A stretch of 64,000 bases of DNA, taken from positions 1,644,439-1,708,438 of the forward strand of contig NZ_JH470338.1 in assembly GCF_000239695.1 (NCBI RefSeq), given 5' to 3'. The translations under genes and the position numbers were made by a program. The notes under the pieces are model-generated. The model was not told the origin of the DNA. It ran no database searches and was given only the letters and a program-made list of their open reading frames with translations. Below, piece by piece: positions 2,548-26,664 of the stretch (position 1 is its first letter; the number at the start of each line of letters is the position of its first letter). Source of the stretch: Actinomyces graevenitzii C83 (lineage in GTDB: Bacteria > Actinomycetota > Actinomycetes > Actinomycetales > Actinomycetaceae).

Positions 2548-4098
2548 ATGAGTACAGCAGTTTCCCCCTCCCCTGAAGTCTCTTCCCCAGAAGGTTCTCC
2601 TCTTGAAGGCTCTTCCACGGCCGGCGCCGATGCTACTGGCGCTGGCGCCGGTACTGCCGGGGCCGCGAGCGCCGGTACTGCCAGGGCCGCGAGCGCCGGT
2701 CAAGGCGCCGACGCGCCCTTTACCAGCCCGGCTGACAAACTGCGCGGGCGCGAACTTGACCGCCAAATCCTGGCCCTGGCCCTGCCAGCCCTGGGCGGGC
2801 TGGTGGCCTCGCCGATTTTTGTCATGATCGACTCCTCCATGGTTGGCCACCTGGGCGCCGACCCTCTGGCGGCGCTGTCGCTGGCCTCCTCCATTTTGAC
2901 CACGGCAGTGGGCCTGTTCGTGTTCCTCACCTACGCCACCACGGCCACAACCGCACGGCATTTCGGGGCCGGGCGTCGTCGTGAAGGGCTAAAAGCGGGG
3001 CTGGACGGAATCTGGCTGGCGGCCCTAATCGGCGTGGCGGTGGCCGGCGTAGCGATGGTGTTTGCGCCCCAGATTGTGGCGGCGATGGGAGCTAAGGCGT
3101 CGGTGGCGACTAACGCGGTGGCGTACCTGCGCATGGTGCTGCCGGGGCTGCCGGGGATGCTGGTGGTGCTGGCGGCCACAGGCACGCTGCGCGGGCTGCT
3201 GGACACGCGCACGCCGTTCATTGTGGCCCTGGCGGGGGCGGCGCTAAACACGCTGCTCAACGCCTTCTTCCTGTATGTGGTGGGGCTGGGGGTGGCCGGC
3301 TCGGGGCTGGGCACGGCCTTGGCGGAGCTGTCGATGGGGGCGGCGCTGGTGACCCCGATTGCCCGCGCGGCCCACGCTGAGCAGGTCAGTTTGCGTCCGC
3401 GCCTGGCCGGGCTGCGCGCCTCCATGGGGGAGGGGCTGGGGCTGTTTGTGCGCAATATTTCTTTGCGCGTGGCCATTTTGTCTACCGTGTGGGCGGCTAC
3501 CGCTTTAGGGGCGACGGCGCTGGCTTCCTACCAGGTGGTTAACGCCCTGTGGGGGGTGTGCTCGTTTGGGCTTGATGCCTTGGCGATTGCGGCGCAGGCG
3601 CTGATTGGTCAGGCACTAGGGCGGGCTGCCGAGGCGCGCCGCCGTGGCGACAAGGATGCTTTAGCGCAGGAAGATGCGGCAATTAGCCGGATTTTGCGCC
3701 GCTGCATGGGCTGGACCCTGGGCGTGGGGGTGGCTGTGGGGCTGGTTGTGGCCGGGGGCGCCAAGTGGCTGCCCTGGTTCTTCACCTCTGACGCACCCGT
3801 GCGCGAACTGGCTTTCTGGCCGCTACTGGCCATGGCGGCGTCGTTGCCGCTGGTGGCGGTGGCTTTCCTGTACGACGGCATTTTGATGGGGGCTGGCGAC
3901 GGGCGGTACCTGGCGGTGGCCGGCGTAATCAACCTGGTGCCATACCTGCCGGCGATCTTGCTGCTGGTCAACGCCCATGAGGGCCTGAGCGACAATGCGG
4001 CGCTGATGCTGCTGTGGGGGGCGTTTGCATTCATTTTCATGGGGATGCGGGCGCTGACTACCGGCTGGCGGATCCACACCGACGCCTGGAAAAAATAA
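2548..4098 (+). CDS. MATE family multidrug exporter (DinF-like)
   Basis: The product is a cation-coupled drug/toxin antiporter of the MATE family in the cytoplasmic membrane. From about residue 70 the protein shows the family start (RQILALALPALGGLVASPIFVMIDSSMVGHLG in outline) and about 12 hydrophobic segments with an internal duplication. The first ~66 residues are a Ser/Gly/Ala/Pro-rich, probably disordered extension, absent from most homologues. Part of it is encoded by a 24-bp tandem repeat. A TAGGCT hexamer at 2532-2537 places a transcription start only a few bases before the ATG at 2548, so the message may be almost leaderless. A 79-bp hairpin element follows 27 bp after the stop. Confidence 0.9.
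   Translation: MSTAVSPSPEVSSPEGSPLEGSSTAGADATGAGAGTAGAASAGTARAASAGQGADAPFTSPADKLRGRELDRQILALALPALGGLVASPIFVMIDSSMVGHLGADPLAALSLASSILTTAVGLFVFLTYATTATTARHFGAGRRREGLKAGLDGIWLAALIGVAVAGVAMVFAPQIVAAMGAKASVATNAVAYLRMVLPGLPGMLVVLAATGTLRGLLDTRTPFIVALAGAALNTLLNAFFLYVVGLGVAGSGLGTALAELSMGAALVTPIARAAHAEQVSLRPRLAGLRASMGEGLGLFVRNISLRVAILSTVWAATALGATALASYQVVNALWGVCSFGLDALAIAAQALIGQALGRAAEARRRGDKDALAQEDAAISRILRRCMGWTLGVGVAVGLVVAGGAKWLPWFFTSDAPVRELAFWPLLAMAASLPLVAVAFLYDGILMGAGDGRYLAVAGVINLVPYLPAILLLVNAHEGLSDNAALMLLWGAFAFIFMGMRALTTGWRIHTDAWKK
2645..2700 (+). repeat. 24-bp tandem repeat inside the MATE gene
   Basis: Two 24-bp units (2645-2668 and 2669-2692) that differ at one base, plus 8 bases of a third. 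They encode the repeated, Ala/Gly-rich residues of the disordered N-terminal extension. The unit keeps the reading frame, so copy number could vary without breaking the gene. Confidence 0.85.
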
Positions 4099-4125
4099 CT
4101 GCAGGTGGAAACAGGCAGGCACATA

Positions 4126-4204
4126 AATACAGGCAAAATCATCCCTTCCCTATAAAAAATTCATGGGGTTTTATAGGGAAGGGATGAAATGTCAGTATTT
4201 GTGA
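4126..4204 (+). repeat. 79-bp hairpin element, copy A
   Basis: A perfect 18-bp stem (CATCCCTTCCCTATAAAA at 4140-4157 pairs with 4169-4186) surrounds an 11-nt loop. The ends form an imperfect inverted repeat starting AATAC and ending GTATT plus TGTGA. It lies 27 bp after the MATE stop codon. The same 79-bp unit recurs at 4501, 4762 and 17201. It has no T-tract right after the stem, so a terminator role is possible but not typical. Confidence 0.9.
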
Positions 4205-4500
4205 GGAGGCCTGGGGAAGAGGGCCTAGAGAAGAGTGGCCGGAGAAGGGGAACCGGGAGCAGCGTGCCAAAAACTGTTTTCTTACAGAGGCCTGGATGTC
4301 CGCGCTGTGCGTCGCTGCGCTGGTGATCGCAGGAGTTCCCTAAACAGATGCTTGGATGGTGCACCTAACGGCTGTCCCAAATGTGACCCTGGTGGGGTTC
4401 CTTGCTAGACCGCTAGACCTTCACCCCTGGGTAGTTTTCGCGTCCGGGCAGTATCTCGGCGCCGGGACAGCACTTTATGCCCGGATGTCCGGGCACTCAT
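4205..4500. other. Non-coding stretch between hairpin copies A and B
   Basis: I see no credible gene here. The short frames that cross this stretch run straight into the hairpin repeats and show no recognisable domain. GC-rich short repeats are present, including a CCCGGATGTCCGGG-like inverted repeat near 4480-4493. It may be remnant DNA between repeat insertions. Confidence 0.5.
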
Positions 4501-4579
4501 TTACAGATACGCAGATATCGTCCGTTGCCTATAAAACCCCATGGAAAAATTATAGGGAAGGGATGATTTTGCCTGTATT
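4501..4579 (-). repeat. 79-bp hairpin element, copy B
   Basis: This is the reverse orientation of copy A, aligning over its full 79 bp. The stem is weaker: two G:G oppositions interrupt the CGTCCGTTGCCTATAA arm. Beyond its right end the unit TGCCTGTATTT is repeated once more, at about 4580-4591. Confidence 0.88.
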
Positions 4580-4638
4580 TATGCCTGTATTTGACTGTGC
4601 CGACTAAGTCCATAAGTTATACAAAAAGTTAAAAAGTA

Positions 4639-4674
4639 GGGGCCCCAGGTAACCCCTTAATACCTGGGACCCCC
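4639..4674 (-). terminator. Rho-independent terminator downstream of the pdxK-type kinase gene
   Basis: On the minus strand a strong GC stem (GGGG and CCCAGGTA pairing across a loop; arms 4639-4651 and 4661-4674) is followed by a T-rich run, the complement of 4621-4638. It lies about 220 bp past the kinase stop, so the kinase message would run through hairpin copy C. Confidence 0.8.
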
Positions 4675-4761
4675 ACAGATCATGGGAAAACCGGCTCGGT
4701 TCAGCCTTTCAGCCTTGCGGCCTTGGTGGTCGGCGCTGCGGCCGGCGCTGCGGCCGGCCCC

Positions 4762-4840
4762 TCACAGATACGGAAAAACCGTCCGTTCCCTATAAAACCC
4801 CATGGAAAAATTATAGGGAAGGGACGATTTTACCTGTATT
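4762..4840 (-). repeat. 79-bp hairpin element, copy C
   Basis: Same orientation as copy B. The stem CGTCC-G-TTCCCTATAA pairs with TTATAGGGAA-G-GGACG, leaving one G:G mismatch. It lies 57 bp downstream of the convergent kinase stop. Past its right end the DNA carries many CTGT-type microrepeats (about 4841-4890). Confidence 0.9.
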
Positions 4841-4896
4841 TGTCTGTGCCTGTCAGTCTGTCTGTGTCTGTCAGTCTGACTGTGCCTCTGAAGGCC

Positions 4897-5709
4897 TCAG
4901 AGGGTAGCGGATGCGCCGCCCTGGTAGACGTAGCTGAAGGGGGCGTTGCCGTGCATACGGTTCTCGATGGAACTGAGCACTACCTGCTTGGCGTCGCGCA
5001 CTGCCTGCAGCGGTGCCACGCCCTTAGCTACCTGCGCGGTAATGGCGGCGGCCAGAGTGCAGCCAGCACCAGAAACTCGCTCGGAGCCCACTGCCGGCAC
5101 TTCCAGCACCTCTAGCTGCTCGCCGTCGTAGTAAACATCCAGCGCAGTGCCGGTGCCCAGCAGGGTGCCAGCCTTAGCCACCACCACGGGCACACCCTGG
5201 TCGTAGATGGCCTTAGCAGCGTCCTTAAGCTGCTCCACACTGGTGATCTCGCCGCGACCAGAAAGCACCTGGGTCTCGAACAGGTTCGGGGTAACAATGC
5301 TGGCCTTGGGCAGCACCTGGGCGCGCAGAGCATTGTCCACATCCAGGGCCGCGCCGGGCTCCTGACCCTTGCAGATCAGTACCGGGTCCAGCACCACCTG
5401 GGGGAACTTGTAGGTATCTAGTGCCTGGGAGACCACCTCGATGGTGGCCGGGGTGCCCAGCATGCCGATCTTTACAGCATCAATGTGGCTGTGAACGCTG
5501 GCGGCCGCCTCAATCTGGTCGGCAATCACCTGCGGGTCAACCGGGACGAAACGGTGGCCCCAGTTGTTGTTGGGGTCAAAGGAAACAATGCAGGTAAGCG
5601 CAGTGCAGCCAAATACACCCAGTTCGTGGAAAGTTTTTAGGTCAGTCTGAGCGCCGGCGCCGCCGGAAGCCTCAGAGCCAGCAATTGCAAGTGCAATGGG
5701 AGTAGCCAT
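4897..5709 (-). CDS. pdxK: Pyridoxine/pyridoxal kinase, PdxK-ThiD type (PfkB superfamily)
   Basis: The enzyme phosphorylates vitamin B6 vitamers, possibly also HMP, with ATP. The 270-residue protein begins with the substrate loop AIAGSEASGGAGAQTDLKTF and ends with the anion-hole motif SGAGCTLAAA (near residue 225). Segments FDPNNNWGH and LDPVLICKG are closer to Bacillus PdxK than to true ThiD proteins, so I favour B6 kinase over thiamin synthesis. It stands alone, convergent with the MATE gene. A palindrome 52 bp upstream could be its operator. Pyridoxal phosphate enzymes are not enriched nearby; the adjacent serine dehydratase is an iron-sulphur type and does not use PLP. Confidence 0.8.
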   Translation of the reverse strand: MATPIALAIAGSEASGGAGAQTDLKTFHELGVFGCTALTCIVSFDPNNNWGHRFVPVDPQVIADQIEAAASVHSHIDAVKIGMLGTPATIEVVSQALDTYKFPQVVLDPVLICKGQEPGAALDVDNALRAQVLPKASIVTPNLFETQVLSGRGEITSVEQLKDAAKAIYDQGVPVVVAKAGTLLGTGTALDVYYDGEQLEVLEVPAVGSERVSGAGCTLAAAITAQVAKGVAPLQAVRDAKQVVLSSIENRMHGNAPFSYVYQGGASATL

Positions 5710-5760
5710 ACGGATAGTTTGCCCCCTTAATAGCGGCCTTGGCTAGGGTAGAGATGGTGT

Positions 5761-5778
5761 AGTTAGTTATTACTAACT
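5761..5778. promoter_or_regulatory. Perfect inverted repeat upstream of the pdxK-type kinase
   Basis: AGTTAGTTATTACTAACT is a 7-bp perfect inverted repeat with a 4-bp spacer, 52 bp upstream of the kinase start and 197 bp upstream of the serine dehydratase start. The size and AT-rich symmetry suit an operator. The binding factor is unknown. Confidence 0.5.
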
Positions 5779-5963
5779 CAGTTATGTCTTGAGTATTGTC
5801 TGGTTACCCCCGCAAATTGATTAACGACGACGCCGCCCGGGTTTGCTCTGATGCTTGCGTCTGTCGGGCAATAATTCACGACGCCGCCGTCCACCGCCTG
5901 CCTGCGTCCCCTTAAGCTAAGCGCATACCTACCCGGGCACAGCCCAGACAAAGCTAAATGCGG

Positions 5964-5969
5964 CATTAT
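5964..5969 (+). promoter_or_regulatory. Minus-10 box for a leaderless sdaA message
   Basis: The CATTAT hexamer has A at position 2 and T at position 6. Counting seven bases on from that T puts +1 on the A of the ATG at 5976. No ribosome-binding site is visible. Confidence 0.5.
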
Positions 5970-5975
5970 TAGAAC

Positions 5976-7538
5976 ATGACCGCACTCAACACCAATGCGC
6001 TAACGGCCCTGCCGGTTGTCCCCGAAGTTGATGGAGAACTAATCACCCCCGCCGCACTGATGGCTGGCGCAGTTGACCCCGAGCTGGCCTCGCGTCCCTT
6101 AAGCGTATTTGACCTGATGCGAGTCGGAATCGGCCCCTCCTCCTCCCATACTGTGGGCCCCATGCGTGCCGGGGCTGCATTTGGCGCTGCTCTCGTGCGC
6201 AACCTTGAGCGCCGTCGCCAAGCCGCTGCGCTACCTCAAGTAACCCGCCTGACCGTAGAGCTATACGGCTCGCTGGGGGCCACCGGGCGCGGACACGCCA
6301 CCGACCGCGCCGTCGTCATGGGCCTGGGCGGCTACAACCCCAAAACTGTCCCCCAGGAAGTGTGCGCCAACTTCTGGGACCAGGTGGAAGCCCAGGGCTA
6401 CGTGCAAATGCCGGGGCTAGGCCAGGTACCCTTCTCCACCAGCAAAGACATCATGTTCCTACCCGGGCGCGTGCTTTCCTACCACGTCAACGGCATGACC
6501 CTAACCGCCTACGACGCCGCCGGGGCGGAAATCCTACGCCGCACCTACTTCTCCGTGGGTGGCGGCTTTGTGATGGAGGATGTGGGCAGTGACGGTCACC
6601 CCGAAATCCGCGCCCTGGCCACAGCCGAAACCAAAGAAGTCAGCGCCACGTTAGCCCCCTACCCCTTCTCCAGCGCCAACGAGCTGCTAGCCATCTGCCG
6701 GCGCACCGGGCTACGCATCAGCGACGTGGTGCTAGCCAACGAGGTCTCCGCCCGCACCGAACAGGAAGTAATCGACTACATCCGCCTGCTCGAAACCACC
6801 ATGATGCAGTGCATCGAGGCCGGCTGTAAGGCCCAGGGGGTACTGCCCGGCGTGCTCGGTGTCCACCGCCGCGCCAACGCCCTCTACCAGCGCCTACTGG
6901 CGGAGGAGAAAACCCCCGCCGACGCCTACTGCCGCCGTGACCCGCTGCGTGGCATGGACTGGGTTAACCTCTACGCGCTCGCGGTCAATGAGGAAAACGC
7001 CGCTGGTCACCGTGTGGTTACTGCCCCCACTAATGGCTCGGCGGGGATTATGCCGGCGGTTTTGGCTTACTACCGCCACTTCTGCCCGGGTGCTAACGAC
7101 GACGGCGTGCGTCGCTTCATGCTGGCAGCTACCGCCGTGGGGGCCCTGATCAAGACCAACGCGTCGATTGCTGGCGCTGAGGTGGGCTGCCAGGGCGAGG
7201 TGGGTTCAGCTTCCTCTATGGCTGCGGCGGGCTTAACTGAGGCCCTGGGTGGCACCCCTGAGCAGGTGGAGAATGCTGCTGAAATCGCCATGGAACACAA
7301 CTTAGGGCTCACCTGCGACCCGGTTGGTGGCCTGGTGCAAATTCCTTGCATTGAGCGCAACGCGGTGGCCAGTGTGAAGGCTATTAACGCCTCGCGTATG
7401 GCCCTGTGGGGCGAGGGCCGTCACCAGGTCAGCCTGGACACGGTTATTGAAACCATGCGCCAAACCGGTGAAGACATGCTCTCCAAGTACAAGGAAACCT
7501 CCCTGGGTGGCCTGGCTGTAAACGTCGTCGAGTGCTGA
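5976..7538 (+). CDS. sdaA: L-serine ammonia-lyase (single-chain, iron-sulphur type)
   Basis: It deaminates L-serine to pyruvate and ammonia with a [4Fe-4S] cluster. The 520-residue chain fuses the beta domain (about 45-215, with SVFDLMRVGIGPSSSHTVGPMRAG in outline) to the alpha domain (about 235-515). The alpha domain holds APTNGSAGIMPAV, cluster cysteines in GCQGEVGSA and the CDPVGGLVQIPC pair. A 40-residue N-terminal extension precedes the beta domain, somewhat longer than the usual single-chain enzyme. It is transcribed away from the kinase and has its own likely leaderless promoter. The two-component pair follows 46 bp later with no terminator seen. Confidence 0.95.
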   Translation: MTALNTNALTALPVVPEVDGELITPAALMAGAVDPELASRPLSVFDLMRVGIGPSSSHTVGPMRAGAAFGAALVRNLERRRQAAALPQVTRLTVELYGSLGATGRGHATDRAVVMGLGGYNPKTVPQEVCANFWDQVEAQGYVQMPGLGQVPFSTSKDIMFLPGRVLSYHVNGMTLTAYDAAGAEILRRTYFSVGGGFVMEDVGSDGHPEIRALATAETKEVSATLAPYPFSSANELLAICRRTGLRISDVVLANEVSARTEQEVIDYIRLLETTMMQCIEAGCKAQGVLPGVLGVHRRANALYQRLLAEEKTPADAYCRRDPLRGMDWVNLYALAVNEENAAGHRVVTAPTNGSAGIMPAVLAYYRHFCPGANDDGVRRFMLAATAVGALIKTNASIAGAEVGCQGEVGSASSMAAAGLTEALGGTPEQVENAAEIAMEHNLGLTCDPVGGLVQIPCIERNAVASVKAINASRMALWGEGRHQVSLDTVIETMRQTGEDMLSKYKETSLGGLAVNVVEC

Positions 7539-7584
7539 GTAGGGGGAGTCTTCCCTAAGCGTATTAGTAGCGCGCAGCAGCTAA

Positions 7585-8328
7585 ATGCAGTGTGATAGAG
7601 CTATGACAGCCACAAACGCCACCACTTCCGATGCCAGCCAGGTCAAGGTGCTAGTGGTCGACGACGAAATTGTCCTAGCCGATCTTCTAGCCAGCGCCCT
7701 GCGCTATGAAGGCTGGGAGGTTACCACCGCCCACACCGGTGCCGACGCCGTGCGCCTGGCCCGCGAAATCTCGCCTGACCTGGTGGTTCTAGACATTATG
7801 CTGCCAGACTTTGACGGCCTTGAGGTGCTGAGCAAGATCCGTCGCAATGACCCGGACATCTCGGTGCTGTTCCTGACCGCCAAAGACTCCATTGCTGACC
7901 GGGTGGAGGGCCTAAGCGCCGGTGGGGATGACTACGTAACCAAGCCCTTCAGCTTGGAAGAGGTAGTGGCCCGCCTGCACGCCCTGCTGCGCCGCTCCGG
8001 CTCAGTGGTGGCCCCGCCCAGTAACGAGCTGGTGGTGGGCGATTTACGCATGGATGAAGACTCCCACGAGGTGTGGCGCGGCGAAGACCCAATTAAACTC
8101 ACCGCCACCGAGTTTGAGCTGCTGCGTTTCTTCATGGAAAACCCGCGCCGGGTGCTGTCTAAGCCGCAAATCCTGGACCGGGTATGGGACTACGACTTTG
8201 GCGGCCAAGCTAACGTGGTGGAGCTTTACGTCTCCTACCTGCGTCGCAAGATCGATAAGGGACGCGCCCCCATGATTCACACCGTGCGTGGGGTGGGCTA
8301 CATGCTCAAGGTCGCTGAGGAAAACTAA
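7585..8328 (+). CDS. OmpR-family response regulator
   Basis: The receiver domain (about residues 20-135) has the acidic pocket VVDDE, the phospho-acceptor Asp in LVVLDIMLPDFDG, the Thr in FLTAKDS and the Lys in YVTKPF. A winged-helix DNA-binding domain follows (about 150-245, ending HTVRGVGYML). Neither start is marked by a good ribosome-binding site; the ATG at 7603 would shorten the protein by six residues and is equally plausible. The sensor kinase starts on the next base after the stop. It resembles the TrcR/MprA group of actinobacterial regulators; the signal is unknown. Confidence 0.93.
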   Translation: MQCDRAMTATNATTSDASQVKVLVVDDEIVLADLLASALRYEGWEVTTAHTGADAVRLAREISPDLVVLDIMLPDFDGLEVLSKIRRNDPDISVLFLTAKDSIADRVEGLSAGGDDYVTKPFSLEEVVARLHALLRRSGSVVAPPSNELVVGDLRMDEDSHEVWRGEDPIKLTATEFELLRFFMENPRRVLSKPQILDRVWDYDFGGQANVVELYVSYLRRKIDKGRAPMIHTVRGVGYMLKVAEEN

Positions 8329-10011
8329 TTGTTTAGGGCTATAAAGCAGCTTCTGGCCTCGGCACGCGGTTCGGCGAGCGGCTGGGAACGCAACTGGCAA
8401 CCAAGTGCCGCCCAGTGCGCCCAGCACCCCCAGGTAGAGGCGGGGCGGCGTCGTCGGCTGTGGGCCCACAAAAAACTGAGCCTGCGTCGCATGATTGTGC
8501 TGACCGTGGTGGCCGTGGTGTTTGTGCTAGCTGGGACGATTGGCTGCCTTAGTACCTGGGCGCTGGAAGCTTCACTGATGGACCGCGCCGATATTCGTGT
8601 GCAGGCCGCCTCCCAGCGCGGTAACACTCGCCGTCACAGCGAATCCACCGAAAAAAACGTCGCCCAGCAGCTACTGCAAACCTATGGCAGTGACAGCAGC
8701 GACTATAACCCGCCCGCCGGCCTAGACGCCCCCGGGCAGGCTGCCGGCACCCTGGCCCTGCTGCGTAACCGCCAAGGGGTGGTGGCCAGCGCTTACATCA
8801 ACAATGAAGGCAAATACACCTACCTGACTCGCGACCAGATAAACACCCTGATGGCAGCGCTTAACTCAGGTAAAACCAAGCCTTTCACGGTGTATGTGGA
8901 GGGGCTGGGCACCTACCGGGTACTGGTTACGCGCGACTCGGTTAGCTCCGACGCCGTACTTACCGGGGTGTCTTTAGCTGATGATGAAGCCCTGATCGGC
9001 CGCCAAATGATTATTGAGGTGCTGCTGGTGGGCAGCGGTGTAGTTCTGGCGGCGGTGGTCTGCTTTGGCTTGGTGTCTAGGTTTTTGCAGCCTCTGCGGC
9101 GCGTGGCAGCTACCGCTCGGCAGGTAGCTACGCAGCCTATGGATAGCGGTGAGGTACAAATTGAGCGCCGTGTAAGCCTTGCTGACCTGTGTTCTTCCAC
9201 TGAAGTGGGGGAGGTGGGCACAGCCCTTAACACCCTGCTTGACCACGTCAATGATGCTTTGGAGGTGCGTCAACGCTCCGAAACCCAGGTGCGTCAGTTT
9301 GTGGCTGACGCTTCCCATGAGCTGCGCACGCCCCTGGCCGCTATCCGTGGTTACACCGAGCTGGTGCGTAGCGGGCGTGAGGGTGATCAGCTTAGCGAGA
9401 TTTCCCAGCAGGCCATGGACCGTATTGCTAGTGAATCGCTGCGCATGAGTGAGCTGGTTAATGACTTACTGCTGCTGGCGCGCTTGGATGCGGGCCGGGA
9501 GCTGGAAGATGAGCTGGTGGATTTAGCTCCGGTGCTGATTGAGTCGGTGGCAGACGCGCAGATAGCTGGCCCTGATCACACTTTTGAGCTGGATTTAAGC
9601 GCTGTGTTTGGGGCAGATGAGGATCTTGATGAGCAGCTGCCGCTGGTGCGCGGTGACGAGCAGCGCCTGCGTCAGGTGCTAGCTAATTTGCTGGCTAATG
9701 CCCGCCTGCACACTCCCGCCGGCACGCATGTGTGGGTCAAGCTGCTGCAAGAGGGCGATGAGTACCGCATTGTGGTGGCTGATAACGGGCCGGGTATTTC
9801 CCCGCAGCTGCGCGGCAAACTGTTTGAGCGCTTTACTCGCGCTGACGCCTCACGTAATCGCCAGGGCGGCTCTACGGGCTTAGGGCTGGCTATTTGCGCC
9901 GCTATTGCCCAGGCTCACGGCGGTAGCGTGCAGTTGGCTGATTCGGCTAGCTATCTCGACGACGCCGCCCAAGGCGCCTGCTTCGTGCTCAGTCTGCCTG
10001 TGGCCAGCTAG
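8329..10011 (+). CDS. Membrane sensor histidine kinase, partner of the upstream regulator
   Basis: A TTG start directly abuts the regulator stop codon, which implies translational coupling. The 560 residues carry a basic cytoplasmic N-terminus of about 50 residues, a membrane segment near 55-78 and an extracytoplasmic sensor of about 145 residues. A second membrane segment lies near 228-250, then a HAMP linker, the HisKA box (FVADASHELRTPLAAIRGY, phospho-His) and the ATPase domain with N-box (ANLLANARLHTP), VADNGPGI and STGLGLAI. The long N-terminus before the first helix is unusual; an internal start could remove it. Downstream lies a GC-rich direct repeat rather than a clear terminator. Confidence 0.92.
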   Translation: MFRAIKQLLASARGSASGWERNWQPSAAQCAQHPQVEAGRRRRLWAHKKLSLRRMIVLTVVAVVFVLAGTIGCLSTWALEASLMDRADIRVQAASQRGNTRRHSESTEKNVAQQLLQTYGSDSSDYNPPAGLDAPGQAAGTLALLRNRQGVVASAYINNEGKYTYLTRDQINTLMAALNSGKTKPFTVYVEGLGTYRVLVTRDSVSSDAVLTGVSLADDEALIGRQMIIEVLLVGSGVVLAAVVCFGLVSRFLQPLRRVAATARQVATQPMDSGEVQIERRVSLADLCSSTEVGEVGTALNTLLDHVNDALEVRQRSETQVRQFVADASHELRTPLAAIRGYTELVRSGREGDQLSEISQQAMDRIASESLRMSELVNDLLLLARLDAGRELEDELVDLAPVLIESVADAQIAGPDHTFELDLSAVFGADEDLDEQLPLVRGDEQRLRQVLANLLANARLHTPAGTHVWVKLLQEGDEYRIVVADNGPGISPQLRGKLFERFTRADASRNRQGGSTGLGLAICAAIAQAHGGSVQLADSASYLDDAAQGACFVLSLPVAS

Positions 10012-10069
10012 CGCTAGTTTCCATCTGGCCGGCGCGCCACGCGCGGTGGTCCGGTGCGGCTTTGTGCCG

Positions 10070-10233
10070 CCTAGCCTGCTGGTGGCCGCCGCCGGTGGCC
10101 ACTGCTGTTCCTGATGCACAGGCGGTCTTGCCGCCACGCGCCGGTGGCGCGGTACGGGTTTGTGCTGCCTAGCCTGCTGGTGGCCGCCGCCGGTGGCCAC
10201 TGCTGTTCCTGATGCACAGGCGGTCTTGCCGCC
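10070..10233 (+). repeat. Direct repeat with 98-bp period after the sensor kinase
   Basis: A 66-bp segment is present twice without change (10070-10135 and 10168-10233). The bases before and after each copy are also similar, which gives a period of 98 bp. Each copy contains two small hairpins: GTGGCC with GGCCAC, and GGCGG-TCTTG-CCGCC. It may end the kinase transcript as a tandem structure. No protein is supported in either strand. Confidence 0.85.
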
Positions 10234-10491
10234 GCGCGCCGGTGGCGCGCAGAGTGCAAGTGTTTTCGCGTGTGAGATGAATAGCTAAGCAATTTTTTCT
10301 TCTCTAAACACAGCATGTGGGAAAAACTGCGTGCCCGGCCTGGGGGAAGTGGGGATAAACCGCCTTGAACTGGAGCTAAGGGGAGGGCGTGGGGCGACGT
10401 CGGAAAAAAGCAGCTAAACCGGCGCAAAAATGGCCACTTAACGCGTGGTGTAGCCCGGGCACACTAAAAGGAAGCGCGCAACGCAGCGAAA
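10234..10491. other. Non-coding stretch between the repeat and the nrd promoter
   Basis: No gene is supported. A DnaA-box-like TGTGGGAAA lies at 10316-10324 and GGGGATAAA lies near 10351, in the opposite orientation to the trio further down. The open frames here are shadows of repeats. Confidence 0.4.
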
Positions 10492-10544
10492 GTATCCACA
10501 GCGGCGGCGCCAGTTGTCCACAAATTCCGGGAGGTTTATGCACA
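10492..10544 (+). promoter_or_regulatory. Three DnaA boxes at 22-bp spacing upstream of nrdHIE
   Basis: GTATCCACA (10492-10500), TTGTCCACA (10514-10522) and TTATGCACA (10536-10544) are in the same orientation with starts exactly 22 bp apart. The middle one equals the high-GC Gram-positive DnaA box; the third fits the loose TTWTNCACA rule. They lie about 170-220 bp upstream of nrdH. In E. coli DnaA binds the nrdAB promoter; a similar link is inferred here. Confidence 0.65.
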
Positions 10545-10712
10545 GATTCGGTGGCAGACACATCATCTTGGGGTGTTGGCGCTTTCGCACCCCTAGGGGT
10601 AGTGTTTTCTATTGCCGGTCGGAATATGCCGGCCGCGTGTTACAAGCGTGTTGTTTCTAGCTCTGGTCTCCCCGCCAGACAGACCCATCAGGATTGAAAG
10701 GCACAAATAAAA

Positions 10713-10961
10713 ATGGCGATCACCGTCTACTCCAAGCCCAACTGCGTGCAGTGCAACGCCACCTACCGCGCCATGGACAAGGCTGGCCTTTCCTACTCCA
10801 CCGTCGACATCTCGGTAGACGCTCAGGCGCTAGAGCAGGTTAAGGCTCTGGGCTACGTACAGGCTCCGGTAGTTATCGCTGGCGATGACCACTGGTCCGG
10901 TTTCCGCCCCGACAAGATCAAGGCTCTAGCTGTAGCTAACGCCACCGCAGTTGCCGTCTAA
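10713..10961 (+). CDS. nrdH: Glutaredoxin-like protein NrdH
   Basis: This small redoxin passes electrons from thioredoxin reductase to the class Ib ribonucleotide reductase. The 82 residues form a thioredoxin fold with the active site CVQC near residues 11-14 and the family tail GFRPDKIKAL. A purine-rich AAAGG lies about 12 bp before the ATG, slightly far. It is the first gene of nrdH-nrdI-nrdE. The 114-bp gap to nrdI contains an 8-bp stem-loop that may tune message levels. Confidence 0.95.
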   Translation: MAITVYSKPNCVQCNATYRAMDKAGLSYSTVDISVDAQALEQVKALGYVQAPVVIAGDDHWSGFRPDKIKALAVANATAVAV

Positions 10962-10971
10962 GTGGCTCTAC

Positions 10972-11003
10972 GAGCGACGTCTACCTGCTGGTGGGCGTCG
11001 CTC
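10972..11003 (+). other. Stem-loop between nrdH and nrdI
   Basis: GAGCGACG (10972-10979) pairs with CGTCGCTC (10996-11003) across a 16-base loop. There is no T-tract, so it may be an RNA-processing or partial-attenuation site rather than a terminator. Confidence 0.45.
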
Positions 11004-11075
11004 AACTGCGTCTTAGGGCGCATCATTGCCGGCCCGCTAGCCGGTGGGATTAACTTGCAACACAGGTCGTGACCA

Positions 11076-11477
11076 ATGGCGCTTTTAGTGTATTTTTCCT
11101 CCACCTCTGAAAACACACATCGCTTCGTAAGCAAACTGGGTATGCCCGCTAAACGCATCCCCCTGCTGCCAAGCCAGCCGCCGCTGGAAGTAGATGAGCC
11201 ATATGTGCTGTTAGTCCCAACCTACGGTGGTGGCAGCATCAAAGGTGCAGTCCCCAAGCAGGTCATTAAATTCCTCAACAATCCCCACAACCGTGAGCTA
11301 TGTCGTGGCGTTATCGCTTCTGGCAATACCAATTTTGGTGCCGCCTACGGCCTGGCTGGTGACATAATCTCTAATAAGCTAAAAGTCCCATATCTCTACT
11401 GCTACGAGCTGTTGGGAACTCCCAAGGACGTAGAGACCGTAAAGCAAGGATTGGAAAAGTTTTGGCAGACACTCTGA
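11076..11477 (+). CDS. nrdI: Flavodoxin-like NrdI
   Basis: NrdI is an FMN protein that supplies the oxidant to assemble the dimanganese-tyrosyl radical of NrdF. The 133-residue sequence starts [17 protein letters not shown], the phosphate-binding loop of the family. It continues with PTYGGG and a [14 protein letters not shown] segment that contacts the flavin. Its 3' end overlaps the TTG start of nrdE by 16 bp, so the two are translated in series. Confidence 0.95.
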
Positions 11478-13618
11478 CTGATACCGGCAGTGAGTCGGTA
11501 CGTTCCCCTGAACTGGACTACCACGCTCTAAACGCCAAGCTGAACCTTTACGGCGCTGACGGCAAGATCCAGTTTGACGCCGATCGCCAGGCTGCACGTC
11601 AGTACTTCCTGCAGCACGTAAACCAGAACACGGTGTTTTTCCACGACATCGAGGAAAAACTCGAATACCTGGTTGAAGAGGGCTACTACGACCCCACCGT
11701 GCTAGCCAAGTACCGTGAAGGCTTCCCCAAGGAGGCTTTCAAAGCCGCCTACGCCCACAAGTTCCGTTTCGAAACTTTCCTGGGGGCCTTCAAGTACTAC
11801 ACCTCCTACACCCTCAAAACCTTTGACGGCAAGCGCTACCTGGAGCGTTTTGAGGACCGCGTGGCCACAGTCGCCATGGCCCTAGCCGACGGCGACGAGC
11901 AGCTAGCGCTAGACCTGATTGAAGAAATCATGTCTGGCCGCTTCCAGCCAGCCACCCCCACCTTCCTAAACGAGGGTAAAGTCCAGCGCGGCGAGCCTGT
12001 ATCGTGCTTCCTGGTGCGCATCGAGGACAACATGGAGTCAATCTCGCGCGGGATCAACTCAGCCTTGCAGCTATCCAAGCGCGGTGGCGGCGTCGCCCTG
12101 CTGCTAACCAACCTACGCGAGATGGGCGCCCCCATTAAGCGCATCGAAAACCAATCCTCCGGCGTCATTCCCGTAATGAAGCTGCTGGAAGACTCCTTCT
12201 CCTACGCCAACCAGCTGGGTGCGCGTCAGGGCGCCGGGGCCGTGTACCTGCACGCCCACCACCCCGACATCATGCGTTTTTTGGACACCAAACGCGAAAA
12301 CGCTGACGAAAAGATCCGTATCAAGACCCTGTCCCTGGGTGTGGTGATCCCCGACATCACCTTCGAGCTGGCCAAGAAGAACGAGGACATGTACCTGTTC
12401 AGCCCCTACGACGTCGAGCGCGTCTACGGGGTGCCCTTCTCCGAAATTTCGGTGACGGAGAAGTACCACGAAATGGTCGACGACGGCCGCATCCGTAAGT
12501 CCAAGATCAACGCCCGCCAGTTCTTCCAGACCATAGCTGAGCTCCAGTTTGAATCTGGCTACCCCTACGTGATGTTTGAGGACACGGTCAACAAGACCAA
12601 CCCCATTAAGGGCAAGGTGGTCATGTCTAACCTGTGCTCGGAAATCTTGCAGGTTTCTGAAGCTAGCGAGCTAAACGCAGACCTAACCTACGCCCACGTG
12701 GGTAAGGACATTTCCTGCAACCTGGGTTCGCTAAACATCGCTAAAACCATGGATTCACCTGATTTTAGCCGCACCATCCGCACCGCTGTGTGGGCGCTAA
12801 CCGCCGTCTCAGACCAGACCGACATTGAGTCTGTGCCTTCCATTCAGCGCGGTAACCGCGAATCGCACGCCATTGGCCTGGGCCAGATGAACCTACACGG
12901 TTTCCTGGCGCGCGAATCCATCCACTACGGCAGCGAAGAAGCCCTGGACTTCACCAATGTTTACTTCGCCAGTGTGCTGTTTGAGGCCCTCAAAGCCTCC
13001 TGCGAGCTGGCCCGCGAGCGCAATGAGCGTTTTGTCGGTTTCGAAGAATCTAAGTACGCCACCGGCGAGTTCTTTGAAAAGTACCTAAACCAGGATTTTG
13101 TGCCCACCACTGAGCGTGTAAAGGAACTGTTTGCCGCTTCTAGTGTGCACGTGCCCAGCCGTGAAGATTGGGCTCGGCTGGCCCAGCAGGTGCGTGAGTA
13201 CGGCCTGTACAACCGTAACTTGCAGGCGGTGCCGCCCACCGGCTCTATTTCTTACATCAACAACTCCACCTCCTCGATTCACCCGATCGTGGCCAAGGTA
13301 GAGATCCGTAAGGAAGGCAAGATTGGGCGTGTCTACTACCCGGCCCCCTATATGACTAACGACAACCTGGAGTACTACAAGGACGCATACGAGATTGGCT
13401 ATAAGGCCATTATCGACACCTATGCGGTGGCTACCCAGCACGTTGACCAGGGCCTGAGCTTAACCTTGTTCTTCCCGGACACCGCCACCACCCGTGACCT
13501 GAACAAGGCCCAGATTTACGCCTGGCGTAAGGGCATAAAAACCATTTACTACGTGCGTCTACGTCAGGCAGCCCTGGAAGGCACTGAGGTAGAAGGCTGC
13601 GTCAGCTGTATGCTGTGA
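11462..13618 (+). CDS. nrdE: Class Ib ribonucleoside-diphosphate reductase, alpha subunit
   Basis: The catalytic subunit reduces all four NDPs to dNDPs. At 718 residues with no N-terminal ATP cone it is class Ib. Visible features are the substrate-site segment ATPTFLNEG, cysteines in VSCFLV and SCNLGSLN, the NLHGFLARE segment, the phosphate-binding PPTGSIS loop and the redox tail GCVSCML at the very C-terminus. The TTG at 11462 inside the end of nrdI gives MADTLTD and is the likely start, since no nearer ATG keeps the family N-terminus. A strong terminator follows 49 bp after the stop, which separates it from nrdF. Confidence 0.97.
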
Positions 13619-13666
13619 GGCTTGGCCCTGCACAGTAATCTGTGGCCTTACACCATAATTTCGCTG

Positions 13667-14827
<1,161 letters not shown>

Positions 14828-14844
14828 GTCAGCTAGGGAGCTAC

Positions 14845-15582
14845 ATGCATACCGTAACTTTCGGACTGCCCTTTAACGGCGTCGTCCCCCTATGGCACGA
14901 AGACGGGCTGATCACCTGGCACCAAAGCGACATTGACCTGGCTGAAGTGCTGGGGCTGGGGCTAGTTGAGGAGCGTGAAATCACCGAGGGGGCCCCTGCC
15001 GGCTGGAGTGAGCGGGTGGAGGTGGGCCGCCTAATGGGCAACATTTTGGAGCTCAAGGCCATCACCCCGACAGGTAAGCGCGCCATTAAGGATGTGGGGG
15101 CTGGGGCCCGCATCGGCATCAGTGACCCGCTGCCTTACCAGGAGGCTATGGGCGAGTTTTTCGACGCCGACGCTTTCAGTGTGCATATCGCTCGGATGCT
15201 GCTGCGTGGGGCGCGCGATGGGCTACTGACCGTGTTTACGCTGCACGAGTCGGGCAACCCCCAAACGCATCACCTGCTGAGCGTGTCTTCCACCCTGGAT
15301 GAGTTGGGATACATGTATTTCCACCTGGTCACCATGGTGGATATGAGTGAGGTTCCCAGCTGGGCGGGTTACTCTAAGTCCGACGGCGTCACTAGCTTGG
15401 ATATGAGCATTAACTACTCTGATCTGCTGGGTAGGGCGGAAATTAACGGCGTGGAGACCGCTGGTGAGGCGCTCGACGCCGGCAAGCTGATTAGCTTTGT
15501 GCGTCCGGCTGTCGATGCCTTGCTAAAGCCTGGTTTCCCCTTCGCTTTGGGGGCCAGCGTGTTTGGCCCCAAGCAGGCCTAG
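14845..15582 (+). CDS. Uncharacterised protein downstream of nrdF
   Basis: I do not recognise this 245-residue protein. It has no signal peptide or membrane segment and is acidic to neutral, with an alternating hydrophobic pattern typical of a globular alpha/beta fold. Notable segments are PLWHEDGLITWHQSD at the N-terminus, a strongly conserved-looking TPTGKRAIKDVGAGARIG in the middle and HESGNPQTHHLLSVSSTLDELG after it. The ATG follows a usable AGGGAG site and lies 17 bp after nrdF, so it is probably co-transcribed with nrdF. Its codon use, including CTA leucines, matches neighbours. A role linked to nucleotide reduction is only an inference from position. Confidence 0.8.
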   Translation: MHTVTFGLPFNGVVPLWHEDGLITWHQSDIDLAEVLGLGLVEEREITEGAPAGWSERVEVGRLMGNILELKAITPTGKRAIKDVGAGARIGISDPLPYQEAMGEFFDADAFSVHIARMLLRGARDGLLTVFTLHESGNPQTHHLLSVSSTLDELGYMYFHLVTMVDMSEVPSWAGYSKSDGVTSLDMSINYSDLLGRAEINGVETAGEALDAGKLISFVRPAVDALLKPGFPFALGASVFGPKQA

Positions 15583-15583
15583 C

Positions 15584-15615
15584 AGCGGGTAGGCCAAACA
15601 GCGGGTAGGCCAAAC
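15584..15615 (+). repeat. Two tandem 16-bp repeats
   Basis: AGCGGGTAGGCCAAAC occurs twice in a row (15584-15599 and 15600-15615), just after the stop codon of the preceding gene. No function is apparent. Confidence 0.85.
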
Positions 15616-15744
15616 AGCTGGCTCTAACGCCCTACCTGCGGCCGCTCCCGGCGCCGGGACTGATTGTCCGGCCCTGGCCGCCAAGGCTGCGCCGACAGGC
15701 CGACGCGCGCGGCCCTGCGCTAGGCGCCGGGGCTACGTATTTGG

Positions 15745-15775
15745 CGGGCAGTGCTTAACTGGCACTGCCCGTTTT
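15745..15775 (+). terminator. Rho-independent terminator
   Basis: CGGGCAGTGC (15745-15754) pairs with GCACTGCCCG (15762-15771) and is followed by TTTT. It ends the nrdF transcript and lies only 14 bp before the promoter hexamer of the next gene. Confidence 0.9.
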
Positions 15776-15788
15776 GTGTGCAGATTCC

Positions 15789-15794
15789 TATAGT
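15789..15794 (+). promoter_or_regulatory. Minus-10 box for a leaderless M20 gene message
   Basis: TATAGT ends seven bases before the A of the ATG at 15801, so +1 would be the start codon itself. Confidence 0.6.
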
Positions 15795-15800
15795 TGAACT

Positions 15801-17201
15801 ATGCGCGACCTTAGCCAGCCCACTGTGCCCTCCCGAGCTTTTTACGACCAACTTGCTGTAGAAACCGAAAAACGCCGTCAAGCTAACCCCACCGCCACCG
15901 CCTTAGATCCCCACGGCGGTGCCAGCATCCAGCTGCGTGAAGAACTAAAAGCCCACATTGAGGCTTTGGCCCCGCAGATCGTGGCGCTAAGCCAGGGTAT
16001 TCACGCTCACCCAGAGGTGGGTTACCAAGAGTTTTATGCCGCCGACGCCGTCGCTAAGCTGCTGCAGGCCCATGGCATTGAGGTTGAGCGCGCCAGTTTC
16101 GGCATGGAAACCTCGCTGCGCGCTCAAATCGGCGGCGAGGCCGCTGCTACGGCCGCCGGCGCCGTCGTCGCAGCTGACGCAGACCGCAGCGAAAAGCAGC
16201 CCACAATCGCGATTTTGTGCGAGTACGACGCCCTACCCGGGGTGGGTCACGGTTGCGGTCACAACGTCATGTGCGCCAACTCCGTTGGGGCCTTCCTAGC
16301 CCTAGCTGAACTGGAAAAAAGCCACCCTGGCGCGCTAGGCGGGCGGGTTATCCTGCAAACCACCCCGGCTGAAGAATGCGACACCGCCAAGGAAATCCTG
16401 GCCCAACGCGGCATGCTAGAGGGTGTGGACGCCGCCATCCAAACCCACTCCTACGCCTACGACCTGGTGGATCAGGCCTGGCTGGGGGTACGCCGGATGC
16501 GCGTAGTGTTCCACGGGGTTTCCGCCCACGCCGCCAGCGCCCCCTTTATGGGCCGCAACGCCCTGGACGCAGTGACGGTGGCGCAGGTGGGTATGGGTTT
16601 GCTGCGTCAGCACATGCTGCCCTCAGACCGTATGCACGCGGTGGTTACCGACGGCGGGCTGGTACCTAATGTGGTGCCTGAGCGGGCAGAAATGAGTGTG
16701 ATTGTGCGTTCGCTGGATGCTGCCACGCTGCGCGACCTGGTGGCGCGGGTGGAGGATGTGTTCCGGGGCGCCGCCCTAGCTACCGGCTGTGGGATGGAGA
16801 TCCTTACCGGTGAAACCACCAATGAGATGCCGGTGCGCGCCAATGGCCCGCTTAGCCAGGCTTGGGTGCGCGCGCAGAACACAGTCGGACGCACGGTGCT
16901 GCCGCGTGGGGTGATTACCGAGGTGATTGCGGCAGGCACCGATTTTGGCAATGTGTCCCAGCGCGTGCCCGGGATTCACCCGCTGATCAAGATTGCCCCC
17001 GAGGGTACGGCCCTGCACACTCATGAATTCGCGACGGCGGCCGGCTCGCCGCTAGGCGACCGCGCGGCTGTGGATGGGGCTTGGGGCCTGGCCAGTGTGG
17101 CCCTGGATTACCTCAGTGACCCTCAACTGCGTCAGGCCGTGCGCGCTGACTTCGAGGCCAGTGGTGGGGTAGTGGACGTGGCCTCCTTCTGGGAGAAGTA
17201 A
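15801..17201 (+). CDS. M20 family metal-dependent amidohydrolase
   Basis: This is a zinc-type amidohydrolase/aminoacylase of the M20D group, related to AbgB and PM20D2-like proteins; the substrate is probably an N-acylated amino acid or dipeptide. In 466 residues it shows HAHPEVGYQE near residue 70, GHGCGHNVMCAN near 150, a PAEECDTAKE glutamate pair near 193 and the lid domain starting VVFHGVSAHAA near 235. The C-terminal metal ligand is in LHTHEFATAAGS. It has no signal peptide, so it acts in the cytoplasm. The likely promoter makes the message leaderless. The TAA stop overlaps the first base of a 79-bp hairpin element. Confidence 0.9.
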   Translation: MRDLSQPTVPSRAFYDQLAVETEKRRQANPTATALDPHGGASIQLREELKAHIEALAPQIVALSQGIHAHPEVGYQEFYAADAVAKLLQAHGIEVERASFGMETSLRAQIGGEAAATAAGAVVAADADRSEKQPTIAILCEYDALPGVGHGCGHNVMCANSVGAFLALAELEKSHPGALGGRVILQTTPAEECDTAKEILAQRGMLEGVDAAIQTHSYAYDLVDQAWLGVRRMRVVFHGVSAHAASAPFMGRNALDAVTVAQVGMGLLRQHMLPSDRMHAVVTDGGLVPNVVPERAEMSVIVRSLDAATLRDLVARVEDVFRGAALATGCGMEILTGETTNEMPVRANGPLSQAWVRAQNTVGRTVLPRGVITEVIAAGTDFGNVSQRVPGIHPLIKIAPEGTALHTHEFATAAGSPLGDRAAVDGAWGLASVALDYLSDPQLRQAVRADFEASGGVVDVASFWEK

Positions 17202-17279
17202 ATACAGGCAAAATCGTCCCCTCCCTATAAAAAAATCATGGGGTTTTATAGGGAGGGGACGAAATGTCAGTATTTGTGA
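17201..17279 (+). repeat. 79-bp hairpin element, copy D
   Basis: This has the same orientation and length as copy A and sits directly on the stop codon of the M20 gene. The 18-bp stem (17215-17232 with 17244-17261) is perfect although two base pairs differ from copy A. Those differences are matched on both arms (A-T to G-C, and T-A to C-G), so the pairing is maintained. Confidence 0.92.
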
Positions 17280-17336: not shown

Positions 17337-17371
17337 GGCGCCGTTGACGCAGTTTCTACGACGACGGCGCC
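17337..17371. terminator. Possible terminator hairpin between convergent genes
   Basis: GGCGCCGTTG (17337-17346) pairs with CGACGGCGCC (17362-17371) with one wobble. No T-tract follows, so the assignment is weak; it lies 13 bp past the DUF885 stop. Confidence 0.4.
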
Positions 17372-17383
17372 CGGCGCGGGTGT

Positions 17384-19075
17384 TCAGGCTAGCGCCTCGC
17401 GCAGCACATCCAGGCCCACGCTACCAATAGCCAGTGCGCGAGAGTGGAATTCCTTAAGCGAGAACTCCTTGCCTTCACGGGCGGCCTTAGCGGCGGCGTC
17501 GTCGCGAATAGACTCCCACAGACGCTGACCCACTGCGTAAGCCGGCGCCTGCCCCGGCCACCCCAGGTAACGCTCCAGCTCAAAGGACAAGAAGCCCTCA
17601 GCCATAGCCACATTGTGGGTCAGGTAAGCCCAGGCGCTGTCGCGATCCCACTTACCCTCGCCAACCCCGGGCAGAGCCGCCAGCTCAGCCGGGCGCTGCT
17701 TGCCGGTGTGCACACCAATGTCTAGCACCACGCGGGCCGCGCGCAGACGCTGGGAGTCGAGCATACCCATGCGGTCACCCAGGTCATCCTGCCAGCCCAG
17801 ATCGGCCATGAGGCGCTCAGCGTAAAGCGCCCAGCCTTCGCCGTGCCCAGAAACCCAGCACAGGTGGCGGCGCCAGTCGTTGAGCTCATCGCGCAGGTAG
17901 GTCTGCATACCCAGCTGCAGGTGGTGGCCGGGAACGCCCTCGTGGAACACGGTGGTGCGCTCCTGCCAGGTGTTAAACACGGTGGTGCCGGCGGGCACAG
18001 ACCACCACATACGCCCCGGACGCGAGAAGTCATCGGAGGGGCCGGTGTAGTAGATACCGCCGGTGGAGGAGGGCGCAATGCAGCATTCGATGCGCTGCAG
18101 CGGGGCGGGAATGTCAAAGTGGGTGCCGTTTAGGCCGGCCACGGCGGCGTCGGCGGTTTCCTGCATCCACTTCTTCAGCGCGTCGGTGCCGTGCTGCTGG
18201 TAGCGCGGCTCCTCGTCCAGGCGCTTGAGGGCTTCCTGCACGCTGACGCCCTCGCCGTACAGCTCGCGGGCCACTTCGCGCTGCTCAGCATCGATGGCGG
18301 CCAGGCGCTCGCGGCCCCACTCGTAGGTTTCGTCTAGGTCAATGGTGGCGCCTAGGAATTCGCGCGAGAACAGCTGGTAGCGTTCACGCCCGACGCCGTC
18401 CTGCTCGCCCGCCTGGGGCAGCAGCTCGGTCTCCAGGAAGTTAGCGAAGTCGCCGTAGGCTGCCTGGGCGCTGGCTGCGTTGGCGGCTAGCTCCTTGCGT
18501 AGGGACTCTGGCAGGGCCTGGGTTTCGGGGGAGGACACTAGGGTCAGGAATGAGGAGGACTCGCCGGCTTGGTTGTGGGCTTGCCCGGCCACGGCGCGCA
18601 CCTGGCGGGAGGCGGCCACCTGCCCACGGCTGGCGGCTAGGCGCAGGGACTCGACGTGACCACCCAGAGCCCGCTTGACGTCGCCTAGGCGGGCGCTGAT
18701 GTTGGCCCAGTCCTGCTCGGTCTCGGTGGGTAGCAGGTCGAATAGGTCGCGGATGTCCTGCGAGGTGGAGGCGATGTTGTTGAGGTTGCGTAGCGGCTCG
18801 CCGGCTTCGGCTAGCTCAATCGATAGCCCTAGGCGTTCGCGCATGGCGGCTACGGTTACTTCGTCGACGGCGTCGGTGGGGGCTACTTCATCCAGCTTGG
18901 CTAGGGTTTCGCGGTCTAGCTGGGTGTATGCGTCTAGACCCTGGGGGGAGAAGTCGTCTAGGACGTCGTGGCGCTCGCCTAGGCCGGTGGAGGAGCCGGT
19001 CATCGGTGAAAGCTCAATTACCTTGGCGGTGTACTCGTTGGCGATGGCGTCAATTGCGCTTGGTTTGTGACTCAT
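17384..19075 (-). CDS. DUF885 family protein, predicted metallopeptidase
   Basis: A 563-residue cytoplasmic protein of the DUF885 family, related to M32-like zinc peptidases. The key motif is HEGVPGHHLQLGMQ in the last third, an HEXXXH-like site. GHGEGWALYAERLM follows downstream and supplies the third ligand Glu. The C-terminal region GWPGQAPAYAVGQRLW is also a family hallmark. The N-terminal half is helical with many Glu/Ala residues. No signal peptide is seen, although some relatives are exported. It is divergent from the phosphatase gene, with about 35 bp between the starts, and is convergent with the M20 gene. Confidence 0.88.
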   Translation of the reverse strand: MSHKPSAIDAIANEYTAKVIELSPMTGSSTGLGERHDVLDDFSPQGLDAYTQLDRETLAKLDEVAPTDAVDEVTVAAMRERLGLSIELAEAGEPLRNLNNIASTSQDIRDLFDLLPTETEQDWANISARLGDVKRALGGHVESLRLAASRGQVAASRQVRAVAGQAHNQAGESSSFLTLVSSPETQALPESLRKELAANAASAQAAYGDFANFLETELLPQAGEQDGVGRERYQLFSREFLGATIDLDETYEWGRERLAAIDAEQREVARELYGEGVSVQEALKRLDEEPRYQQHGTDALKKWMQETADAAVAGLNGTHFDIPAPLQRIECCIAPSSTGGIYYTGPSDDFSRPGRMWWSVPAGTTVFNTWQERTTVFHEGVPGHHLQLGMQTYLRDELNDWRRHLCWVSGHGEGWALYAERLMADLGWQDDLGDRMGMLDSQRLRAARVVLDIGVHTGKQRPAELAALPGVGEGKWDRDSAWAYLTHNVAMAEGFLSFELERYLGWPGQAPAYAVGQRLWESIRDDAAAKAAREGKEFSLKEFHSRALAIGSVGLDVLREALA

Positions 19076-26310: not shown

Positions 26311-26398
26311 GGTAGCGTGTCCGAGCGGCCGAAGGTGCAGCACTCGAAATGCTGTGTGGTGCAAGCCACCCCGGGTTCGAATCCCGGCGCTACCGCCA
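26311..26398 (+). tRNA. tRNA-Ser (anticodon CGA)
   Basis: The acceptor arms GGTAGCG and CGCTACC pair perfectly. The anticodon loop is CTCGAAA, there is a long class II variable arm, the T-loop reads GGTTCGAATCC and CCA is encoded. It reads UCG serine codons. A terminator follows six bases later. Confidence 0.97.
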
Positions 26399-26403
26399 CT
26401 AAT

Positions 26404-26434
26404 TCCCGTCATGCAATGCGTGGCGGGATTTTTT
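26404..26434 (+). terminator. Terminator for tRNA-Ser(CGA)
   Basis: TCCCGTCATGC pairs with GCGTGGCGGGA (two wobbles, AAT loop) and is followed by six T residues. Confidence 0.88.
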
Positions 26435-26540
26435 GTTTCCGACGGCGCAGGGTGCTGCACGGTAGTACGCGGTGCGGTGGGCTGTGCGCGGGGCGGCGTC
26501 GTCGAGAAAAGTGGGGCCGGGAAAAGCGGGAGTAAATAAG

Positions 26541-26573
26541 GCATAAAAAATCCGGAACCTGACGGTTCCGGAT
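26541..26573 (-). terminator. Terminator for tRNA-Ser(GGA)
   Basis: On the minus strand ATCCGGAACC pairs with GGTTCCGGAT (26550-26573) and a T6 run follows (complement of 26545-26550). It lies four bases past the end of the minus-strand tRNA. Confidence 0.92.
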
Positions 26574-26576
26574 CGG

Positions 26577-26664
26577 TGGCGGAGGATGGGGGATTCGAAC
26601 CCCCGAGGGCTTGCACCCAACACGCTTTCCAAGCGTGCGCCATAGGCCACTAGGCGAATCCTCC
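26577..26664 (-). tRNA. tRNA-Ser (anticodon GGA)
   Basis: GGAGGAT and ATCCTCC form the acceptor stem. The anticodon loop TTGGAAA gives GGA, which reads UCC and UCU. A long variable arm, T-loop GGTTCGAATCC and encoded CCA are present. It faces the other tRNA-Ser gene, each with its own terminator between them. Confidence 0.97.

Follow-up and report, generated by a model that had tools for sequence, protein, structure and literature searches.

ERIC or IRU sequences (enterobacterial repetitive intergenic consensus, intergenic repeat unit) are long imperfect intergenic palindromes of fixed length that carry a conserved core and lie near gene ends. Repetitive extragenic palindromic (REP) elements of the GTAG/CGTC type, as described in PMC3733652, are palindromic and intergenic, lie mostly between convergent or unidirectional open reading frames near their 3' ends, and have stems of 5-13 bp (GTAG) or 8-9 bp (CGTC) in units of 20-40 bp; their subfamilies carry alternative complementary stem residues, and some copies lie within genes. 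Compensatory evolution is also known for terminators, according to PMC5381666. We analysed a stretch of 64,000 nucleotides of the Actinomyces graevenitzii C83 genome (contig NZ_JH470338.1, positions 1,644,439 to 1,708,438 of the forward strand; hereafter the window), in which one palindromic element occurs four times. These copies probably constitute a small repeat family specific to their lineage, made up of long intergenic palindromes of ~80 bp and belonging to the general kind to which REP, ERIC and miniature inverted-repeat transposable elements (MITEs) belong. In window coordinates they are:

4125..4204, + strand: copy A, perfect stem 4139-4157 / 4169-4187, apex with CATGGGG
4501..4580, - strand: copy B, weak stem, right arm decayed
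4762..4841, - strand: copy C, long stem with mismatches
17200..17279, + strand: copy D, perfect stem 17214-17232 / 17244-17262, overlaps the stop codon of an M20 peptidase-family gene

The sequence-only reading, an earlier inspection of this DNA, had placed four copies of 79 bp at these sites; the sites stand, and the conserved block is 80 columns long in the alignment. A core pattern allowing up to three mismatches matches copies A-D only within the window, and 0 of 100 dinucleotide-preserving shuffles contain it. The covariance model of the four copies, run with filters off, recovers all four on both strands and gives no fifth copy in the window, the next best match (E 0.42) being at chance level. 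Ends are common to all four copies, length is fixed, both orientations occur, and similarity halts at the element edges. The end pair AAATAC/GTATTT is present in A and D and carries one mismatch in B and C, the outer parts being imperfect; the ends, read earlier as an imperfect inverted repeat, are shared and pair imperfectly. All four copies share the CATGGGG apex and much the greater part of the left arm, and the letters beside the apex are A-rich in A and D and T-rich in B and C. An inversion of the apex between these two pairs was considered and dropped on inspection, the orientation of CATGGGG being unchanged. Rfam 15 yields five matches in the window at gathering score, including msiK and a SAM element, and none at the copies. 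These two elements agree with a place in Actinomycetaceae, as does protein similarity.

RNA fold z-scores are -9.3 for A and -8.7 for D, -4.8 for C and -0.9 for B, in agreement with the earlier description of B and C as reverse-oriented copies with weaker stems. The stems of A and D each consist of 19 consecutive Watson-Crick pairs, perfect as first described and one pair longer than the 18 bp then given. As had also been noticed, the two stems differ at two pairs (A-T/G-C and T-A/C-G), with both arms exchanged in each case; under a simple uniform model, the probability that four stem substitutions land as two complementary pairs is ~3e-4. Departures of B and C from A and D are mostly broken pairs rather than compensated ones. 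The sequence-only reading took such paired changes as a sign that the folded form is under selection. The changes between A and D are real, and selection is not demonstrable in the window family because it has four copies and only the A-D comparison is clean.

The copies occupy two intergenic regions, both convergent, with A-C at one junction and D at the other. The features of the two junctions are:

2548..4098, + strand: MATE-family gene (Pfam MatE), upstream of copy A
4636..4676, no strand: second hairpin of the MATE/kinase junction, outside the family (hairpin scan)
4897..5709, - strand: phosphomethylpyrimidine-kinase-family gene (Pfam Phos_pyr_kin), converging on copies A-C
15801..17201, + strand: M20 peptidase-family gene (Pfam Peptidase_M20), ending at copy D
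17337..17371, no strand: second, imperfect hairpin of the M20/DUF885 junction, outside the family (hairpin scan)
17384..19075, - strand: DUF885 gene (Pfam DUF885), converging on copy D

Two copies had been described as lying directly behind a stop codon. This holds only for D, where the block's first two bases lie within the M20 stop TAA (17199-17201); copy A starts 26 bases past the end of the MATE stop codon (4098). The window copies therefore lie where REP elements lie, near the 3' ends of convergent genes, and they stand in the position of a bidirectional terminator. Gene calls in the window come from a simple codon-model gene caller, with gaps counted if at least 40 bp long; since 7 of 42 such gaps are convergent, finding both junctions convergent (0.03) is merely suggestive. 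Beside copy C, the stretch between it and the kinase gene (4842-4895) holds short CTGTCTGTGCCTGTCAG-type repeats, partly like the end motif of the element.

This position invites the explanation that the copies are bidirectional intrinsic terminators sharing sequence through copying, with selection on the RNA hairpin behind the compensatory changes. Besides the convergent setting, the strong stems of A and D and the known compensatory evolution of terminators (PMC5381666) speak for it, as do the ten over-threshold hairpins of the window, which fall in five of its seven convergent gaps, both gaps with family copies among them. However, neither A nor D has a T-run behind its GC-rich stem on both strands: the - strand has TTTTGCC after the stem, and the + strand has AATGTCA, without a T-run. 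Additionally, the outer arms and apex are conserved well beyond what a terminator needs, the same junctions hold other hairpins, and G-U pairs are not preferred over A-C mismatches in co-directional copies of the comparator families treated below. We thus consider terminators an unlikely explanation of the family.

Searches beyond the window were made in 213 genomes of the family of Actinomyces dentalis, where both BLAST and the covariance model returned 0/213, weak evidence without a known-positive genome. The exact core is absent (0) from genome_contigs. A plasmid or phage origin was not retained, as copy A has no match in plasmid or phage records and three element patterns give 0 in viral_contigs; a 16-base piece of the element matched seven viral stretches, with the second arm in none. 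The forward reading frame of the element had no match in the protein collection. One open reading frame of the element is found, in frame, in 15 predicted proteins (15/15 candidates; P0121-P0135), with three apex variants (VIF in 12, VIF with a changed neighbour in 1, EKI in 2); the element is followed by end-motif repeats that differ in number. Judging from shared flanking segments, these proteins apparently represent one further locus, even if some of them end differently, and the element-bearing frames may well be spurious genes. The copies form a real family with common ends, as the sequence-only reading had it, apparently with this one locus in addition. Among the titles listed in searches of open-licence literature, none describes repeats of this design in Actinomyces.

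Some relatives of the window's species carry hairpins at the M20/DUF885 junction. The M20 gene was examined in 16 loci (L001, L013-L027), and DUF885 follows it convergently in six. Four of these six junctions hold scoring hairpins, with a perfect stem of 31 bp in L014, a perfect stem of 17 bp in L021, and imperfect stems in L016 and L017. The L014 hairpin is itself a repeat within its genome (G009), unrelated in sequence to the window family. A model from 12 of its copies (13 rows, one partial match dropped) gives 49 matches in G009, equal to 25 distinct sites, and matches 7 of the 213 genomes: G009, G047 (11 sites), G040 (4), G050 (1), and G155, G162 and G166 with one weak match each.

Covariation in this comparator family is strong. 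In the alignment of 12 copies, 93.5% of cells are paired, and both sides are changed in 14 of 32 pairs and in 40 cells; none of 500 shuffles reaches any of five measures, and when the partner is shifted by 1-3 columns the covariation score falls from 0.313 to 0.073 or less. One of the 12 sequences supplied the structure, which favours that structure; the gap is nevertheless large. Position was examined at 40 sites (24 of the 25 in G009, 11 in G047, 4 in G040, 1 in G050), of which 19 lie between convergent genes, 15 between co-directional and 2 between divergent ones, 3 inside a gene, and 1 at a contig edge. In 140 kb of G009, 14 of 80 background gaps are convergent; the 19 convergent sites among 36 intergenic ones exceed this share (p 1.6e-4), and the excess holds for the 23 sites of G009 alone, where shared sites are not counted twice (p 0.005). 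By flanking genes, up to two per side, 9 of the 11 sites in G047 and 3 of the 4 in G040 have a counterpart in G009, and hence these copies were mostly inherited in place. In three species a copy occupies the same place within a response-regulator gene, in frame and in the linker that joins the receiver domain to the LuxR-type helix-turn-helix (L144:3047-3131 in G009, L133:2986-3070 in G047, L139:3000-3084 in G040).

Palindromes of this kind are not confined to one family. A second G009 palindrome has 6 matches in G047, 10 in G040 and 0 in G037 (both strands counted). Genome G037 has a palindromic family of its own at 32 distinct places (L151-L179), unrelated to the window family, built of nested CACGACC / GGTCGTG units and often in longer arrays. 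In 120 kb of G178, we saw 11 hairpins and, by eye, no repeat family. The long-palindrome kind therefore occurs in several relatives, though it was not seen in every one examined.

The comparator families allow the cause of paired changes to be addressed, because a selected folded RNA should tolerate G-U on the transcribed strand more than A-C mismatches. In the G009-type family, counted at 34 of the 40 sites, the 15 co-directional sites show 6 G-U and 11 A-C, while the 19 convergent sites, where both strands are transcribed, show 10 and 9. The 13 co-directional sites of the G037 family show 5 of each, giving 11 G-U vs 16 A-C at co-directional sites of the two families together. As G-U is no commoner than A-C in these small numbers, selection at the RNA level, one of the two forms that the sequence-only reading had allowed, is unsupported. 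The counts fit a cause at the DNA level, such as correction of one arm by template switching, which the abstract of PMC8604942 mentions, or a requirement that the DNA be palindromic. By analogy, homogenisation of the arms at the DNA level would explain the same paired pattern in the window family.

In the preferred account of a lineage-specific family, the unit would be a non-autonomous element that spread to the 3' ends of genes, where hairpins may be tolerated and could act as a terminator or as a 3'-end shield for converging transcripts. Its arms may be kept complementary at the DNA level, by template-switch correction, by selection for a folding palindrome, or by both, and not by selection on one RNA strand, as the comparator families suggest. 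A wider proposal, which we regard as possible but put forward only tentatively, is that Actinomycetaceae carry an undescribed class of 60-90-bp near-perfect palindromes, of which the window family is one. Such palindromes would fall into families unrelated between lineages, settle at gene 3' ends (often convergent) and persist there through speciation, and either template-switch correction or selection for extruded hairpins would keep their arms complementary at the DNA level, so that sequence turns over while shape persists.

Several observations weigh against the lineage-specific account. Copy B is hardly a hairpin, with 40 of 200 shuffles folding equally well, and each of the two copy junctions holds a further hairpin outside the family. 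No consistent target-site duplication is seen at the 4 window copies or at 23 comparator copies. Two of the six M20/DUF885 junctions in relatives (L013, L015) hold no hairpin over threshold. The G037 places (12 convergent, 13 co-directional, 6 divergent and 1 at an edge, vs 17 of 76 gaps convergent) show an apparent weak convergent excess and no lack of divergent sites. At matched sites of the G009 family, broken pairs (82) outnumber compensated ones (49), with 288 unchanged, 37 changed on one side and still paired, and 10 gapped; this comparison is rough (14 pairings, one G047 site used twice, indels uncurated) and less clean than the covariation of the 12 copies. Lastly, that strong covariation belongs to an unrelated family of a relative, and since the comparator families share no sequence with the window family (0/213), what they show transfers to it by analogy.

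Another account is that the copies are MITEs belonging to one particular DNA transposon, whose transposase would recognise the AAATAC...GTATT ends and move the copies in trans, with the gene-end position reflecting tolerance only. Fixed length, shared ends and both orientations agree with it, and so does the M20 protein, whose C-terminus varies at the edge of copy D. Among the 120 homologues listed of 5220 matches, 102 end in SFWD and 18 in SFWEK, SFWKK, SFWEN or SFWDK, and the window protein ends in SFWEK (17190-17201); this fits an insertion polymorphism, without being proof of one. The best-scoring match to this protein among the 213 relatives is 66% identical, and the protein collection holds proteins 97% identical. 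However, target-site duplication is lacking, the window copies sharing no repeat of 2-9 bases outside their ends, and the one 2-mer that all four have in common is internal to the element. Additionally, the ends pair imperfectly, and no candidate transposase was identified: the check suggested earlier, a search for the Y1 (RAYT) transposase PF01797, gave 0 in 8 related genomes, with control matches in 5 of 14 genomes. We judge this explanation to be quite improbable. Local duplication of an unimportant palindromic stretch, with neither mobile nor functional role, would account for three of four copies lying within 720 bp and for the end motif repeated beside copy B, and is very improbable given that similarity ends at the element edges, that copy D lies 12 kb off beside other genes, and that there is apparently one further locus.

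Elsewhere in the window, a perfect 17-bp hairpin with CCGTTTTT behind it separates the large-subunit ribonucleotide reductase gene from the next one (13666-13703), two tandem 98-bp copies are 94% identical (10044-10239), and two serine tRNA genes, with anticodons CGA and GGA, point towards each other (26311-26664).

For the species of the window alone, the family is a modest addition to known palindromic repeats. Taken with its comparators, which occupy 25 and 32 places in single genomes, many of the first at matching sites in a sister species, it is a compact system in which to ask why palindromic repeats collect at bacterial gene ends. The comparator families also make testable whether compensatory changes reflect RNA selection or a mutational process in which one arm is copied from its partner.

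Compared with described systems, the window family is MITE- or REP-like in kind, anatomy and position, as first proposed. It shares with bidirectional intrinsic terminators (PMC5381666) a hairpin between convergent genes and compensatory stem changes, and differs in being a repeat family with conserved outer arms and apex and a T-run on one side only. Like MITEs, it is short, non-coding, of fixed length and present in both orientations, with ends that may count as imperfect inverted repeats; unlike them, it lacks target-site duplication and a known partner transposon, and membership is unproven. Beside ERIC or IRU sequences, the element is shorter, unrelated in sequence and from another phylum. 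Membership in REP proper fails because the tag is missing and the stem is too long: GTAG is absent from the element ends, and CGTC is confined to the stem interior of C and D, where A and B have CATC. The Y1 (RAYT) transposase that partners GTAG-type REP elements gave no match in the 8 relatives searched. Measured against REP elements as PMC3733652 describes them, the window family departs in its 19-bp stem and ~80-bp unit, and agrees in being palindromic and intergenic with some apparently genic copies, in its 3'-end position, and in its paired stem alternatives.

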